DNA from: Oscillatoria salina IIICB1
GTDB lineage: Bacteria; Cyanobacteriota; Cyanobacteriia; Cyanobacteriales; SIO1D9
Assembly (NCBI RefSeq): GCF_020144665.1
Contig: NZ_JAAHBQ010000048.1
Coordinates: 1 to 46,380 of the forward strand
Direction of reading: 5' to 3'
Length of the DNA stretch: 46,380 nucleotides
In this document: piece after piece, positions 1,476 through 46,380 of the stretch
How the letters are laid out: each line of letters starts with the position of its first letter
Numbering within the stretch: position 1 is the stretch's first letter
Translations under genes and position numbers: made by a program
The notes under the pieces: generated by a model
The model's database searches: none
Told to the model about the DNA's origin: nothing
What the model saw: only the letters and a program-made list of their open reading frames with translations

Positions 1476-3677
1476 TTAGAACCAATCATCATCTTCTTCA
1501 TCCCAATCATTTTGATAAGGGATATCCGAACGACGACGGCGATCGGAACGCGGCGGAGAGTCCGAGCGCGTGGGATAATCCGAACGAGGTGGATAATCCG
1601 AGCGCGTGGGATAATCTGAGCGAGGTGGATAATCCGAGCGAGGTGGATAATCCGAGCGAGGGGGATAATCTGCCGGAGAGCGACGGGAATTATTGTTATA
1701 CCGAGGACTTTCTCTCTCACCATAGTAGTCATCATATCCCGAATAGCGGCGATCGCCTGGGCGATCGTAACCGCCTCTGGAGGGATAAGGAGGTTCTGGT
1801 TCTCTTTCACCCGTAAAGGTACGACGAATCGAACCAAAAAAGTCATCGTCTTCTTCTTCTTGATACTGCAACCGAACCTCTCGATTTAACTCATAAAGAG
1901 CATCTTCAAGATCCGATTGCGCGCGATCGATGCGGCGTTCGTCATCTAATTCCAGACTACTGCGTAACTCCTCAACCAAAGCCTCAATCCGACGGCGATA
2001 ATAGCTAGCAAACTGAGTCCCAAAATCAAGACTTACCTCTTTCAACCGCCGGAGAGCCTGATCTGCCAAAGCCCCAGCCCGATTGCGTTTTTCCACTCGT
2101 TCGCGGCGTTCCTTATCAGCACGACTAAATTGTGCCGCTTCGCGAATCATTTGCTCAACTTCACCCTGGCTCAAAGTCGAAGCACCTTGAACGATAATAC
2201 TTTGTTCGCGCCCAGTAGTCTTATCCTGAGCCGTAACTTGCAAAATCCCATTAGCATCGATATCAAAAGCCACCTGAATTTGAGGAAGTCCCCTCGGTGC
2301 TGGCGGAATTCCCGTAAGCTTAAACTTACCCAGAGACTTATTATCCGCCGCCATTTCCCGTTCCCCTTGCAGCACGTGAACCTCTACCAAGGTTTGATTA
2401 TTTTCCGCCGTCGAAAAGACATCCGAACGTCGCACAGGAATCGTCGTATTGCGCGGAATCAACTTTTTCGTTACCCCACCAATCGTCTCCAAACCTAGAG
2501 ACAAAGGCGTAACATCAAGCAAGAGAATATCTTTAACCTCACCACCAATAATTCCCGCTTGAATTGCTGCACCCACAGCAACCACCTCATCAGGATTCAC
2601 ATTTTGATTCGGTTCTTTATCGATAAAACTGCGAACGAGTTCTTGTACCATCGGGATACGAGTCGAACCGCCCACCAAAACCACCTCATCAATTTGTACC
2701 GGAGAAATCCCCGCATCCGAAAGCGCCCGTTTAATCGGACGACGCAAACGACTAACCAAATCTCCACACAAACTTTCAAATTGAGGGCGAGTTAGCTTCG
2801 TTTCAATGTGTTTCGGACCCTCTTCCGTAGCAGTAATAAAAGGCAGATTAATTTCCGTAACACTCACACCCGACAACTCAATTTTCGCCTTTTCCGCCGC
2901 CTCCATCAGACGTTGGAGAGCTTGGCGATCGCGTCGTAAATCTACTTTCTCAGTTTCCAGAAACTGCTCCGCTAACCAATCGACAATTTTCTTATCGAAA
3001 TCATTCCCACCCAACTGCGTATCGCCGCTAGTCGCCTTAACCTCAAAAACACTATCCCCTACATCCAAAATCGAAACATCAAACGTTCCGCCACCCAAAT
3101 CAAACACCAAAATCGTTTGCGAATCATAACGATCTAACCCATAAGCCAAAGACGCTGCTGTCGGCTCATTGATAATCCGCATCACCTCCAAACCAGCAAT
3201 TCGTCCCGCATCCCTCGTCGCCTGTCGTTGAGAATCATTAAAATAAGCAGGTACGGTAATTACTGCCCCCGTTACAGGTTCCCCCAAATAACGCTCCGCT
3301 TCCTCAGCCAACTTCCGCAACACCAGCGCCGAAATCTCTTCCGGCGCAAATTCCTTACGCAAGCGAGGGCATCTAACTTTAATATTGCCCACCTCATCAC
3401 GCCGAATCGTATAAGGAACGCGCTTTGATTCCGGGCTAAGTTCAGCATATTTACGACCAATAAAGCGCTTCACCGCATAAAAAGTATTCTGAGGATTGAG
3501 AACCGCCTGTCGTCGTGCCATTTGCCCAACTACCAGTTCTCCATCCTTATTAAAGCCCACTACCGAAGGCGTGGTCCGCATCCCTTCCGAGTTAGCGATT
3601 ACCACTGGTTTGCCGCCTTCCATGACAGCTACTACTGAATTGGTTGTCCCTAAGTCAATGCCGACTACTTTGCCCAT
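1476..3677 (-). CDS. dnaK: Hsp70 chaperone DnaK (DnaK3-like, repetitive tail)
   Basis: A 733-residue Hsp70: an ATP-driven chaperone that binds unfolded segments. The N-terminus has the phosphate-1 signature [17 protein letters not shown], followed by the second signature [15 protein letters not shown] and LVGGSTRIP in the ATPase domain (to about 385), then the substrate-binding beta domain and helical lid (to about 600). After the lid comes an unusually long charged tail rich in Arg, Asp, Tyr and Pro, with hexapeptide repeats, ending in an acidic DDDWF. DnaK2-type proteins are near 635 residues, so this is longer by about 100. Long tails and a neighbouring dnaJ are features of cyanobacterial DnaK3, reported as thylakoid-associated and essential in Synechococcus. 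I see no CIRCE operator upstream. Confidence 0.96.
1533..1658 (-). repeat. 18-bp tandem repeat encoding RSDYPP units in the DnaK tail
   Basis: Seven consecutive 18-base units encode hexapeptides of the form [18 protein letters not shown] or RSDRRR (about residues 674-715 of DnaK), with a degenerate unit on each side. The phase is exactly in frame, so copy number can change without breaking the gene. The opposite strand is also open here, which creates spurious reading frames. Confidence 0.9.
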
Positions 3678-43757: not shown

Positions 43758-44300
43758 TTAAAAAGAACCAAAAAGATAATTTCCAGGAGAATCTGGGTCA
43801 TCACTTTTGTGAAATTGTTCGAGCAATTGCTTAAATACATCCTTAGACAGGGTGTTATCCCCTTTAAGATTTAGTTTAGAGCAGGCAATCTCTAATCCTT
43901 CATCACTAACTCCCCATGCTTTCATCAATCCAGTATACTCTTCGCTGTTAATGACACCATCTCCATTTCGATCGAATAGAGCAAAAATAGCATCTGCTTC
44001 CTTTTTCACAGTCTCATACATATTTTCGCTGTTAATGCAAGTATAACCATGTTCGAGCCACTCATCTAAGGTAATTTGACCGTCTTGATTCTTGTCTACA
44101 TTTTGTTGTAGATTATTCCAGTCGGCCATAACTTGAGCGTACATCTCATCATAACCCGTTGAACCTGGACTAAGATTATGTAGCTTGGCAACTGCTTGGA
44201 CTTTGAGTTCGTAATCTTCTTTATTAACAACACCATTTTTATTGGTGTCATAAATATTAAACAAATGAGTCCATTTCTTAGTTTGAAGTTCAGTAAGCAT
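43758..44300 (-). CDS. EF-hand calcium-binding protein (calerythrin-like)
   Basis: A 180-residue protein with three clear EF-hand loops: DTNKNGVVNKED, DKNQDGQITLDE and DRNGDGVINSEE, and a fourth degenerate loop (NLKGDNTLSKDVF) lacking several ligands. This four-hand layout is that of calerythrin and sarcoplasmic calcium-binding proteins. I chose the ATG at 44300 (MLTELQTKKW); GGAGG lies upstream, though at 13 bases. The frame is open to 44375. No enzymatic domain. Calcium buffering or sensing is the likely role. A 10-bp inverted repeat lies upstream. Confidence 0.88.
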   Translation of the reverse strand: MLTELQTKKWTHLFNIYDTNKNGVVNKEDYELKVQAVAKLHNLSPGSTGYDEMYAQVMADWNNLQQNVDKNQDGQITLDEWLEHGYTCINSENMYETVKKEADAIFALFDRNGDGVINSEEYTGLMKAWGVSDEGLEIACSKLNLKGDNTLSKDVFKQLLEQFHKSDDPDSPGNYLFGSF

Positions 44301-44422
44301 AATGACTAATTTGCCTCCATGAAATATGTTAAGAAAGTAACTATCAACTGTGCACACTCTCAGAAGTGCTGTCACCTTAATAGATAACTTGCGTTCTTAA
44401 GTGCTTACCCGATACTCTCGCT

Positions 44423-44454: not shown

Positions 44455-44673
44455 TAGAATAAATTGAACATGACTTTTGCAGCGATGTCAATGTTTTATT
44501 AATTTTTCTTCAATTGAGGCAAATATCTCATTAGTAATAGTTCTCGGATACCTGTTATGGGTTTAATTTCTAATTTTTAACTTCTGGATCTTAGAGAATT
44601 TTTGTCTGTGTAGTTAATTTTTATTTATTTTTTCATTTCTTAACTCTATTTTAACCGTTCTTTAAAAAAGGAT

Positions 44674-44722
44674 AAAATTACGTTCCAATTCTTCTGGTAT
44701 AACCATCATCCATTCAATCGGA
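44674..44722 (-). pseudogene. Partial fourth copy of the Rpn-like repeat
   Basis: 44674-44722 matches the segment encoding IEWMMVLPEELERNF in the other copies (for example 45000-45047), but the sequence to its left is unrelated. It marks the far end of the tandem array, where a copy is truncated. Confidence 0.75.
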
Positions 44723-44737
44723 AAAAGTTTTAACTCT

Positions 44738-44962
44738 TTAATCGGCTTGAATTTGTGCCAAAATTTGCTCAAACTCTTGAAGAGACTCAACAGTAACCGC
44801 TTGTCTATGTAACTGTTTTAACTGTGGTAAATTTTCAATTGTGTTGAGAATGGCGATCGCGTTTTCTGGTACAACCTCAAATCGTATCTGTAAAACTTCT
44901 ATGACTGACTCGCGAGCATTTTGTACCATTCCATCTCGCTCAAATCCGGTAATATATGGCAT
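44738..44962 (-). CDS. Tandem copy 3: stand-alone 74-aa C-terminal Rpn-like protein
   Basis: Starts at the internal ATG (44962) behind GGGAGG, 8 bases before the ATG, and encodes 74 residues, MPYITGFERDGMVQNARESV to a C-terminal EQILAQIQAD. Compared with the main-gene copy it has 12 substitutions and no disruption. Upstream, the frame of the longer repeat continues in the same register to 45050 (KRYREENRMPY), and a start at 45115 is open but runs through the neighbouring copy in a wrong frame first. So a longer product is less likely than the 74-residue one. Related to the C-terminal part of the nuclease at 45392. Confidence 0.6.
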   Translation of the reverse strand: MPYITGFERDGMVQNARESVIEVLQIRFEVVPENAIAILNTIENLPQLKQLHRQAVTVESLQEFEQILAQIQAD

Positions 44963-45062
44963 TCGATTTTCCTCCCGGTAACGCTTGAGTTCAGTTCTAA
45001 AATTACGTTCTAATTCTTCTGGTAAAACCATCATCCATTCAATCGGAAAAAGTTTTAACTCT

Positions 45063-45287
45063 TTAATCGGTTTGAATTTGTGACAAAATTTGCTCAAACT
45101 TTTGTACAGAGTCAACAGTAACTGCTTGTCTATGTAATTGTTTCAACTGTGGTAAATTTTCAATTGTGTCGAGAATTTGGTTAATGTTTTCTGGTACAGT
45201 CTCAAACCGTATTTGTAAAACTTCTATGACTGACTCGCGAGCATTTTGTACCATTCCATCTCGCTCAAATCCGGTAATATATGGCAT
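45063..45287 (-). CDS. Tandem copy 2: stand-alone 74-aa C-terminal Rpn-like protein
   Basis: Same ORF as copy 3: MPYITGFERDGMVQNARESV to EQILSQIQTD, 74 residues, ATG at 45287 preceded by GGGAGGAAAATTGA. Here the codon just before the ATG is TGA where both other copies have CGA, so the upstream part of the repeat is closed and only the internal start can make this protein. First 20 residues equal copy 3; residues 21-60 equal the main gene, so it is a mosaic. No domain name beyond similarity to the nuclease tail. Confidence 0.65.
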   Translation of the reverse strand: MPYITGFERDGMVQNARESVIEVLQIRFETVPENINQILDTIENLPQLKQLHRQAVTVDSVQKFEQILSQIQTD

Positions 45288-45372
45288 TCAATTTTCCTCC
45301 CGATAACGCTTGAGTTCAGTTCTAAAATTACGTTCTAATTCTTCTGGTAAAACCATCATCCATTCAATCAAC
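45288..45372 (-). pseudogene. Upstream remnant of copy 2, ended by TGA
   Basis: Encodes MMVLPEELERNFRTELKRYREEN followed by a stop at 45288-45290, in the place where the other copies read Arg. It has no start of its own and no nuclease domain, so it is non-coding relic DNA that only carries the ribosome binding site of the 74-residue frame. Confidence 0.75.
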
Positions 45373-45391
45373 CGAGAAAAATTTTAACTCT

Positions 45392-45616
45392 TTAATCGGT
45401 TTGAATTTGTGCCAAAATTTGCTCAAACTCTTGAAGAGAGTCAACAGTAACCGCTTGTCTATGTAACTGTTTCAACTGTGGTAAATTTTCAATTGTGTCG
45501 AGAATTTGGTTAATGTTTTCTGGTACAGTCTCAAACCGTATTTGTAAAACTTCGATTGTTGACTCGCGAGTATTTTGTGCTATTGCGTCTCGCTCAAATC
45601 CGGTAATATATGGCAT
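45392..45616 (-). CDS. Intragenic 74-aa ORF within the Rpn-like gene
   Basis: ATG at 45616 in the frame of the full gene, preceded by GGGAGG with 8 bases of spacing (GGGAGGAAAATCGAATG). Encodes MPYITGFERDAIAQNTREST to EQILAQIQTD. In E. coli, Rpn genes make a short C-terminal product from an internal start that inhibits the full-length protein; this layout is the same. Expression here is inferred from the ribosome binding site and from the conservation of the frame in two tandem copies. Confidence 0.55.
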   Translation of the reverse strand: MPYITGFERDAIAQNTRESTIEVLQIRFETVPENINQILDTIENLPQLKQLHRQAVTVDSLQEFEQILAQIQTD

Positions 45617-46380
45617 TCGATTTTCCTCCCGATAACGCTTGAGTTCAGTTCTAAAATTACGTTCTAATTCTTCTGGTAAAACCATCATCCATTCAATCAA
45701 CCGGAAGAGTTGAAGAATCTCATTTCTACTATAACCGCGATCGCCCTGAAGGGCGCTGGCGCTACCGCGCCAATCGCCGAGTTCTCGGATTAAGCTTAAC
45801 TTTGACTGCAAGCGTTGCTGAAGATTCTCGCGGGTGGCTAGGGTTGTCAAATGAGCCATAACTATGACAGCAAAGGGATTGCGACTTTGCTCTAAAATTT
45901 GCCATTGCTGTCGATAGTCTAATAATTTCACCGTGGGAAACTGGAGAGTGGTTTGGAATCCCCAACGACTATAACTATAGCTTGTTGGTCGCCAAGAAAG
46001 GCGATCGTCTGCTAAAATTGCCAAACTAATGACTTCGCGATCGTATTTATCAAACAAACGGTGATTGTAGATATACATCCACTTGGCAAAATCAGATTGT
46101 GACTGACTTTGAACTTCAATGTGAATCAACACTACAGCTTCTTCACCATCAAGTAGCCATAGTTTAACCAGCTTATCTGCTAAACGCCTTCCTGTTTCAG
46201 AATCGCGAATAATTTCTTGCAATTCTGTATCCAAGGAGTCATAGCCTCTCAACCAATCAATATCTTGATGAGCCTGGGGAAAAAAGAATGCCATAAACGG
46301 CTCAAAATAGATATCGATTGCCTCTTTCCAAGGACTATCGTAATCGGACTGGGCTTGGTTGACGCTCCCCTGCCTAAAGG
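45392..46380 (-). CDS. Rpn-like PD-(D/E)XK nuclease/putative transposase, start beyond the edge
   Basis: A frame open from the window edge to a stop at 45392, at least 329 codons. It reads SDYDSPWKEAIDIYFEPFM, the usual N-terminus of this cyanobacterial family, so the ATG at 46294 is internal and the true start lies beyond 46380. ADKLVKLWLLDGEEAVVLIH with IEVQSQSQSDFAK is the nuclease core (acidic residues and ExQ replacing ExK). Rpn-related proteins cut DNA and some act in phage defence. An extra stretch GDWRGSASALQGD lies between KLSLIREL and RGYSRNEIL, from an inserted repeat. The C-terminal 74 codons can be translated from an internal ATG (45616) behind GGGAGG, and are repeated downstream. 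Confidence 0.8.
   Translation of the reverse strand, partial: FRQGSVNQAQSDYDSPWKEAIDIYFEPFMAFFFPQAHQDIDWLRGYDSLDTELQEIIRDSETGRRLADKLVKLWLLDGEEAVVLIHIEVQSQSQSDFAKWMYIYNHRLFDKYDREVISLAILADDRLSWRPTSYSYSRWGFQTTLQFPTVKLLDYRQQWQILEQSRNPFAVIVMAHLTTLATRENLQQRLQSKLSLIRELGDWRGSASALQGDRGYSRNEILQLFRLIEWMMVLPEELERNFRTELKRYREENRMPYITGFERDAIAQNTRESTIEVLQIRFETVPENINQILDTIENLPQLKQLHRQAVTVDSLQEFEQILAQIQTD
45737..45777. repeat. 41-base three-way-junction element inside the Rpn-like gene
   Basis: GCGAT (45737-45741) pairs with ATCGC (45773-45777) around two hairpins: GCCCT (45743-45747) with AGGGC (45750-45754), and TGGCGC (45757-45762) with GCGCCA (45767-45772, loop TACC). It overlaps a HIP1 site. In the protein it corresponds to about 13 extra residues where the family reads a continuous IREL(Y)ERGYSR, so it appears to be an in-frame insertion of a small dispersed repeat. 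Confidence 0.7.

Follow-up and report, generated by a model that had tools for sequence, protein, structure and literature searches.

Why should an Rpn-like nuclease gene be followed by further copies of its own 3' end? The question is raised by contig NZ_JAAHBQ010000048.1 of Oscillatoria salina IIICB1 (assembly GCF_020144665.1; G000:C48 in our numbering), whose entire 46,380 nucleotides (nt) form the window analyzed here. At one end of this contig, on the minus strand, lies an Rpn-like gene (the parent gene) whose last 74 codons, together with 82 to 87 nt of upstream linker, recur twice in tandem downstream. In Escherichia coli, translation from a start inside the Rpn gene yields RpnS, a small C-terminal protein that blocks the long nuclease (PMC10327210). 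RpnS also occurs as a separate downstream gene, namely, ypaA behind rpnE and a copy behind rpnC in some strains, with independent origins (PMC10327210). Since separate downstream rpnS genes have already been published, the array is a case of a described arrangement. We propose, at a probability of roughly 0.6, that the two downstream copies (copies 2 and 3, copy 1 being the one inside the parent gene) are stand-alone RpnS-type antitoxin genes whose specificity is related but not identical to that of the parent.

An earlier note on this DNA had described a tandem repeat of the 3' end with a period of 329 and 325 nt, intact 74-codon frames opening at an ATG 8 nt after GGGAGG, and a nuclease part that is not repeated; all of this was borne out. 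Tandem Repeats Finder reported a repeat at 44673-45698 (period, 325; 3.1 copies; 92% matches), and a repeat search of the window found three 300-nt copies, two of them 92% and 90% identical to the reference copy, with unit spacings of 329 and 325 nt. The same search found a 47-nt linker four times, and no 74-codon frame stands behind the fourth linker copy (Table 1). All three frames run uninterrupted from ATG (45616, 45287, and 44962) to TAA (stops at 45392, 45063, and 44738), and in all three GGGAGG lies 8 nt ahead of the ATG, giving each frame the start codon and ribosome-binding site of an RpnS-type gene. The nuclease part is present once, as homology between parent and copies begins only 82 to 87 nt ahead of the ATG. 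The frame of copy 2 cannot begin earlier because an in-frame TGA directly precedes its ATG; copy 3 lacks such a stop, and its frame can be read upstream as far as a TTG. With spacings that are not divisible by three and a stop at the end of each frame, the array does not encode one long protein. Pairwise, the three copies differ at 15, 24, and 21 of 225 nt and are therefore not one stretch assembled twice. An assembly artifact, against which the earlier note had wanted relatives checked, was ruled out: the copies are 7 to 11% different, and the same layout recurs in other genomes and at three further loci of this genome.

The start codon of the parent gene is unseen because the contig end cuts the gene. 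The parent protein (P0001) matches neither the Pfam Rpn model PF04754 nor the NCBIfam model TIGR01784, and we place it among the Rpn proteins because of 40 relatives that are 41 to 61% identical to it. Among the 41 aligned members (P0001 and these relatives), 27 match TIGR01784 (best expectation [E] value, 3.5e-8) and 14 match PF04754 (best E value, 3e-8) at an E value of ≤0.01. Residues D14, D68, and Q90 are invariant in the 41 sequences, and E88 is nearly so. Judged by order and spacing, these residues are probably the equivalents of D11, D63, E82, and Q84 of RpnA, a pattern of the PD-(D/E)XK type. In the part of PMC5350276 consulted, the RpnA substitutions D11A, D63A, E82A, and Q84K each led to loss of all three tested phenotypes, and the RpnA nuclease was stimulated by calcium. 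The predicted model of the parent (mean predicted local distance difference test [pLDDT] score, 85) contains a low-confidence hinge at residues 255 to 259, which coincides with the internal Met, and beyond it a distinct helical C-terminal domain. A fold search with the whole protein gave EndoMS, which we take to be a PD-(D/E)XK enzyme, as the best match, a weak one (E value, 0.05). A PADLOC scan returned only a weak BrxA match (E value, 0.005). Relative to its aligned relatives, the parent carries an 11-codon insertion (GDWRGSASALQ; window 45737-45775, adjoining GCGATCGC) in a region where model confidence is low (residues 206 to 212); a dispersed repeat as its nature was ruled out, as the genome held one match with up to 3 mismatches.

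The internal Met is invariant in all 41 members, an invariance that is circular because 40 of them were found with a search pattern containing that Met; among loci found without that pattern, one parent has GTG instead (L010). The model of copy 2 is all helical (residues 6 to 28, 33 to 41, 45 to 57, and 61 to 73; pLDDT, 82), with helix 1 spanning residues 6 to 28. A sequence search of the PDB with query A1 gave OR303 (2n2t; E value, 0.051), which is not an Rpn protein, as the best match.

To place the array among its relatives, we screened 203 stretches, many of them overlapping and part of them fetched because the adjacency had already been seen, for an Rpn gene with stand-alone tails. This gave 19 groups and, counting the two focal ones, 23 stand-alone copies. 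In a set of 80 loci not chosen for adjacency, a stand-alone copy stood behind 9 of the 61 genes that had at least 600 nt downstream. Two intact copies follow a full gene in Argonema antarcticum (L054), similar to the focal locus, and genome G139 (L178) has two copies behind a gene with an interrupted nuclease part. The stand-alone tail copy of Symploca sp. SIO2E6 (L106, 4483-5184) forms an in-frame fusion with a SnoaL-like domain (Pfam E value, 5e-27).

Three further Rpn-like loci of the O. salina genome, from other subfamilies, have stand-alone tails of their own: three at C25, two at C7, and one at C20 (Table 1). Their assignment to Rpn by model is weak: the TIGR01784 matches of C7 and C20 lie below the cutoff of that model (E values, 2.5e-4 and 4e-5), and C25 and its copy carry DUF4351 (E values, 2e-24 and 5e-23), a domain name given to separate RpnS genes in some species (PMC10327210). 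No downstream homology was seen at five other loci of this genome (C12, C30, C117, C79, and C85; frames of 288 to 318 residues, tail match E values of 1e-8 to 1), and at the start of C77, where the contig end truncates a tail of another subfamily, the 3 kb examined contained no copy. Downstream homology occurs at 6 of 28 loci of the C7 subfamily, C7 itself included, and at L269 it is probably a second full gene. The only other gene of the focal subfamily found in this genome (G000:C63:34655-34942; 54% identical over ~100 residues) is not a decayed fragment, as it has a start of its own; its tail is unseen because the contig end truncates the gene after ~100 residues.

The stand-alone copies are kept as protein-coding frames. 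Of the 23 copies, 22 are intact, the exception being the first copy in L076; under neutrality, with half of the substitutions assigned to the copies, ~12.5 of 22 should be free of stops (an estimate that counts stops only). A Shine-Dalgarno-like sequence, by a loose pattern, lies ahead of 22 of the 23 copies (exception, L010). In 7 of the 19 groups (L006, L035, L039, L054, L055, L057, and L070), homology to the parent ends 13 to 27 nt before the ATG, at the binding site, with the frame itself staying similar. At C7 the homology ends 5 nt before the ATG, and at C20 it ends within ~15 weakly matching nt before it, each time with a stop just upstream; at C25 it reaches 59 nt upstream, and the start there is harder to place. 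The ratios of nonsynonymous to synonymous substitution rates (dN/dS) between the focal parent and its copies were 0.38 and 0.62, and the corresponding ratio of proportions of changed sites (pN/pS) was 0.52 between the two stand-alone copies, so that the neutral divergence of the frames that the earlier note had named as fatal to its proposal was not what we saw. Pooled pN/pS was 0.38 for 22 parent-copy pairs, 0.23 for 54 attached pairs, and 0.33 for 5 pairs of stand-alone copies (two sequences being used more than once); at this last value, the stand-alone copies are under purifying selection. Parent-copy values at C25, C7, and C20 ranged from 0.05 to 1.12, the highest resting on few changes. 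Thus, the earlier description of an Rpn-like gene with a likely internal start and with stand-alone copies kept as intact frames is supported.

These figures bear on another explanation, that the copies are functionless leftovers of tandem duplication, which the nuclease itself might have promoted. The authors of PMC10327210 suggest that RpnL may itself start such recombination and that tandem duplication gives rise to rpn arrays; some copies are indeed broken, and the fourth linker remnant of the focal array is frameless. However, nearly all copies of the main set are intact, copies are constrained relative to one another, the binding site has been retained at several loci where the flanks have been lost, and the arrangement recurs at four loci of one genome. 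We consider debris unlikely and rank it last among the explanations weighed here.

If the copies are antitoxin genes, their specificity should lie in helix 1. In E. coli RpnS, four-residue repeats in this helix vary in number, and for RpnC, a repeat added to one partner but not to the other abolishes inhibition, so that only RpnS with the same number blocks (PMC10327210, Fig. 4D legend). Helix-1 length differed between parent and copy in 15 of the 22 intact cyanobacterial copies, always by 4 residues or a multiple thereof; over its first 45 residues, the tail was constant in length. The remaining 7 copies, the focal two among them, are of equal helix-1 length and differ by substitutions. At the focal array there are no four-residue repeats and no length variation, variation in repeat number being a feature of the relatives only. 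Copies 2 and 3 share five helix-1 substitutions (residues 11, 12, 13, 16, and 20) relative to copy 1, and helix 1 accounts for 5 of the 8 residues that differ between copies 1 and 2, a clustering with P values of 0.056 (by residue) and 0.001 (by 34-nt window). Among the six copies at the other loci of this genome, the helix-1 stretch was longer than that of the parent by 4 residues three times and shorter by 8 twice and by 15 once. By the published repeat-number rule, which was tested for RpnC (PMC10327210), length-mismatched copies should not block their neighbor.

Similar mismatches were seen in E. coli. We read 14 rpnE loci, those of MG1655 and of 13 genomes fetched from 60 listed of 5371 genomes with a match. 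At 12 of these loci ypaA was present, and in 12 of 12 its repeat length differed from that of the internal copy, in 7 distinct combinations; of the remaining two loci, one was fused (L217) and one was interrupted beside an IS2 element (L218). At rpnC, all 7 fetched loci with a downstream copy, two of them apparently identical, differed in the repeat stretch; these downstream copies begin with different residues, and the copy in L221 has no annotated start. The MG1655 ypaA gene (L204, 7817-8002) is annotated as a pseudogene and has an intact frame, with one four-residue repeat more than the internal tail of rpnE; YpaA protein has been detected (PMC10327210). K-12 RpnE is annotated as an inactive protein. 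A repeat mismatch between neighbor and copy was not found in the main text of that paper.

The earlier note had concluded that the locus multiplied a restraining module, perhaps for dosage or to counter different Rpn paralogs. The part that stands is the presence of several separate antitoxin-like genes; the part that fares poorly is extra dosage, given that most other loci mismatch in their four-residue repeats. As redundant RpnS genes, the copies would raise the ratio of antitoxin to nuclease, and the focal frames are of equal length, their first 45 tail residues are 43/45 and 39/45 identical to those of the parent, and the linker and binding site are nearly unchanged, all of which suits such a role. 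Yet 5 helix-1 residues set the focal copies apart from the parent, and the mismatches elsewhere (15/22 in cyanobacteria, 12/12 for rpnE and ypaA, and 7/7 for rpnC) should abolish inhibition under the rule of PMC10327210. We therefore regard dosage as doubtful and diverged specificity as more likely, although at the focal locus, where copies and parent differ by substitutions only, dosage may still apply.

Several observations weigh against the reading of the copies as antitoxin genes of diverged specificity. At the focal locus itself, helix-1 length is the same as in the parent, the by-residue P value for the clustering of changes in helix 1 is 0.056, and a search of the coding strand of the array revealed neither a sigma-70-type promoter nor a terminator. 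Foldseek and VIA-align searches with the tail gave nothing clear, and RpnA-S (PDB 7TH0) was not listed. Among the relatives, L076 has one broken copy (the first) beside one intact copy, and two of the 19 parents (L039 and L178) themselves lack part of their N-terminal side; in the C7 subfamily, the L260 copy has an internal stop and that in L259 is a short relic. No Shine-Dalgarno-like sequence was evident ahead of the C25, C7, and C20 copies, and the difference of 15 residues in one C7 copy is not a multiple of 4. Substitution rates are alike in helix 1 (64/396) and the tail (141/990). Finally, at a tail identity of at least 85%, length mismatch was found in 13 of 16 parent-copy pairs and in 25 of 43 pairs of attached genes. 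Because attached pairs mismatch about as often, the mismatch may reflect plain hypervariability rather than selection for difference, and in E. coli, independent drift of the two repeat counts would leave 12 of 12 rpnE/ypaA loci unmatched with a P of ~0.35 (arithmetic from the observed counts). Selection for mismatch was thus not borne out; what these comparisons establish is the absence of matching between stand-alone copies and their neighbors.

The differences between copies may also carry a record of exchange. In the focal array, the 32 variable sites fall into 8 runs, compared to a mean of 20.9 in shuffled data, and 0 of 100000 shuffles gave a number as low. Such a pattern points to exchange in blocks or to imported tracts, although clustered mutation would give a similar picture. 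Four stand-alone copies from three related genomes have an upstream stretch in common and so probably descend from one copy; in the alignment, their 3' halves are mixed with those of attached genes. E. coli strain 146 has an rpnE gene with the 5' part of the internal tail and the 3' part of ypaA and has no separate ypaA. Such a blocked site pattern and such mosaics would also be seen if the copies, translated or not, served mainly as recombination donors that alter the C-terminal specificity domain of the nuclease. A pure donor needs neither a binding site nor a start codon, however, and it is at one or the other that homology often begins, with a stop just upstream at some loci; moreover, mosaics can form without selected switching. 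We find a role mainly as donors improbable, somewhat more so than a role in dosage.

Our preferred reading, stand-alone RpnS-type antitoxin genes of diverged specificity, implies the following course of events. Tandem duplication of the 3' end of an Rpn gene, together with its internal ribosome-binding site, would have produced the copies, each of which would yield a 74-residue helical protein. By analogy with E. coli RpnS, this protein would use helix 1 to bind the C-terminal domain of the nuclease and keep the nuclease inactive. The copies have been kept as proteins and have drifted or recombined, leaving a block of differences in the specificity helix, and their likely role would be to provide cover for nuclease variants, past or incoming, rather than more of the same inhibitor. 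A stronger version, which we offer tentatively and think possible rather than probable, is that the copies form an archive of kept antitoxins, their helix unmatched to that of the neighbor, which neutralize former or foreign Rpn variants, with recombination swapping specificities and with the same holding for ypaA.

The closest known likeness is that of rpnE-ypaA and of rpnC with its downstream copy in E. coli, where, as here, a stand-alone gene behind an Rpn gene encodes the small C-terminal protein of that same Rpn gene, with an independent origin at each locus and with four-residue repeats in helix 1. In contrast to E. coli, two or three tandem copies occur here at three loci and one copy occurs at a fourth, all in one genome; different Rpn subfamilies are involved, and the focal copies lack the four-residue repeats. 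The parent itself resembles the RpnL/RpnS pair in its putative PD-(D/E)XK-type residues, assigned by order and spacing, in a C-terminal helical domain behind a start codon and ribosome-binding site, and in the low-confidence model hinge at the internal start; it differs in that P0001 matches neither of the two Rpn family models. Solitary, or orphan, type II antitoxins, proposed as anti-addiction factors in the parts of that literature consulted, are likewise stand-alone antitoxin genes related to the antitoxin of a complete system, whereas the copies described here lie directly behind the parent gene and derive from the 3' end of the toxin gene itself. Among the best-ranked literature matches, as given in listings and abstract openings, no other paper on stand-alone RpnS appeared. 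New here are the one to three stand-alone copies at four Rpn-like loci of one genome, the general lack of matching between copy and neighbor, the 9/61 recurrence, the 22/23 intact copies, the purifying selection on stand-alone copies, and the frequent start of homology at the ribosome-binding site or start codon.

The features are listed in Table 1. The next gene downstream on the same strand (window 43758-44375) encodes an EF-hand protein; a link to the calcium-stimulated RpnA is not evident. Elsewhere in the window (1542-1672) lies a tandem array of ~6 copies of an 18-bp unit (TCCGAGCGAGGGGGATAA and variants).

Table 1. Features of the focal array (window positions) and of the three further loci of the O. 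salina genome with stand-alone copies
Feature	Location	Strand	Remarks
Rpn-like nuclease gene (parent)	45392..46378	-	328 codons seen; 5' end cut by contig end; putative catalytic residues by order and spacing
Copy 1, internal 74-codon RpnS-like frame	45392..45616	-	Within parent gene; begins MPYITGFERDAIAQ
GGGAGG	45625..45630	-	8 nt ahead of internal ATG 45616; direct reading
Copy 2 linker	45288..45374	-	87 nt homologous to parent, 99% identical; GGGAGG at 45296-45301
Copy 2, stand-alone 74-codon RpnS-like frame	45063..45287	-	TGA directly ahead of ATG
Copy 3 linker	44963..45044	-	82 nt, 99% identical to parent; GGGAGG at 44971-44976
Copy 3, stand-alone 74-codon RpnS-like frame	44738..44962	-	Open upstream to TTG 45115
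Fourth repeat-unit remnant	44673..44719	-	Linker only; no 74-codon frame behind
C25 locus	G000:C25, L243 1400-3301	-	3 stand-alone copies
C7 locus	G000:C7, L244 1325-2892	-	2 stand-alone copies
C20 locus	G000:C20, L245 1071-2351	-	1 stand-alone copy

Rpn genes are widespread, and phage defense has been shown for one of them; with the antitoxin lying inside the toxin gene, both must change together (PMC10327210). Separate copies break this coupling of toxin and antitoxin within Rpn genes. If the archive version is true, a cell could change the specificity of its nuclease and yet keep immunity to the old one. If the stand-alone copies are real antitoxins with a specificity unlike that of their neighbor, a simple and testable prediction follows for E. 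coli K-12, in which the repeat counts of ypaA and rpnE are one apart. They would also show how such a system changes its pairing surface without killing the cell.

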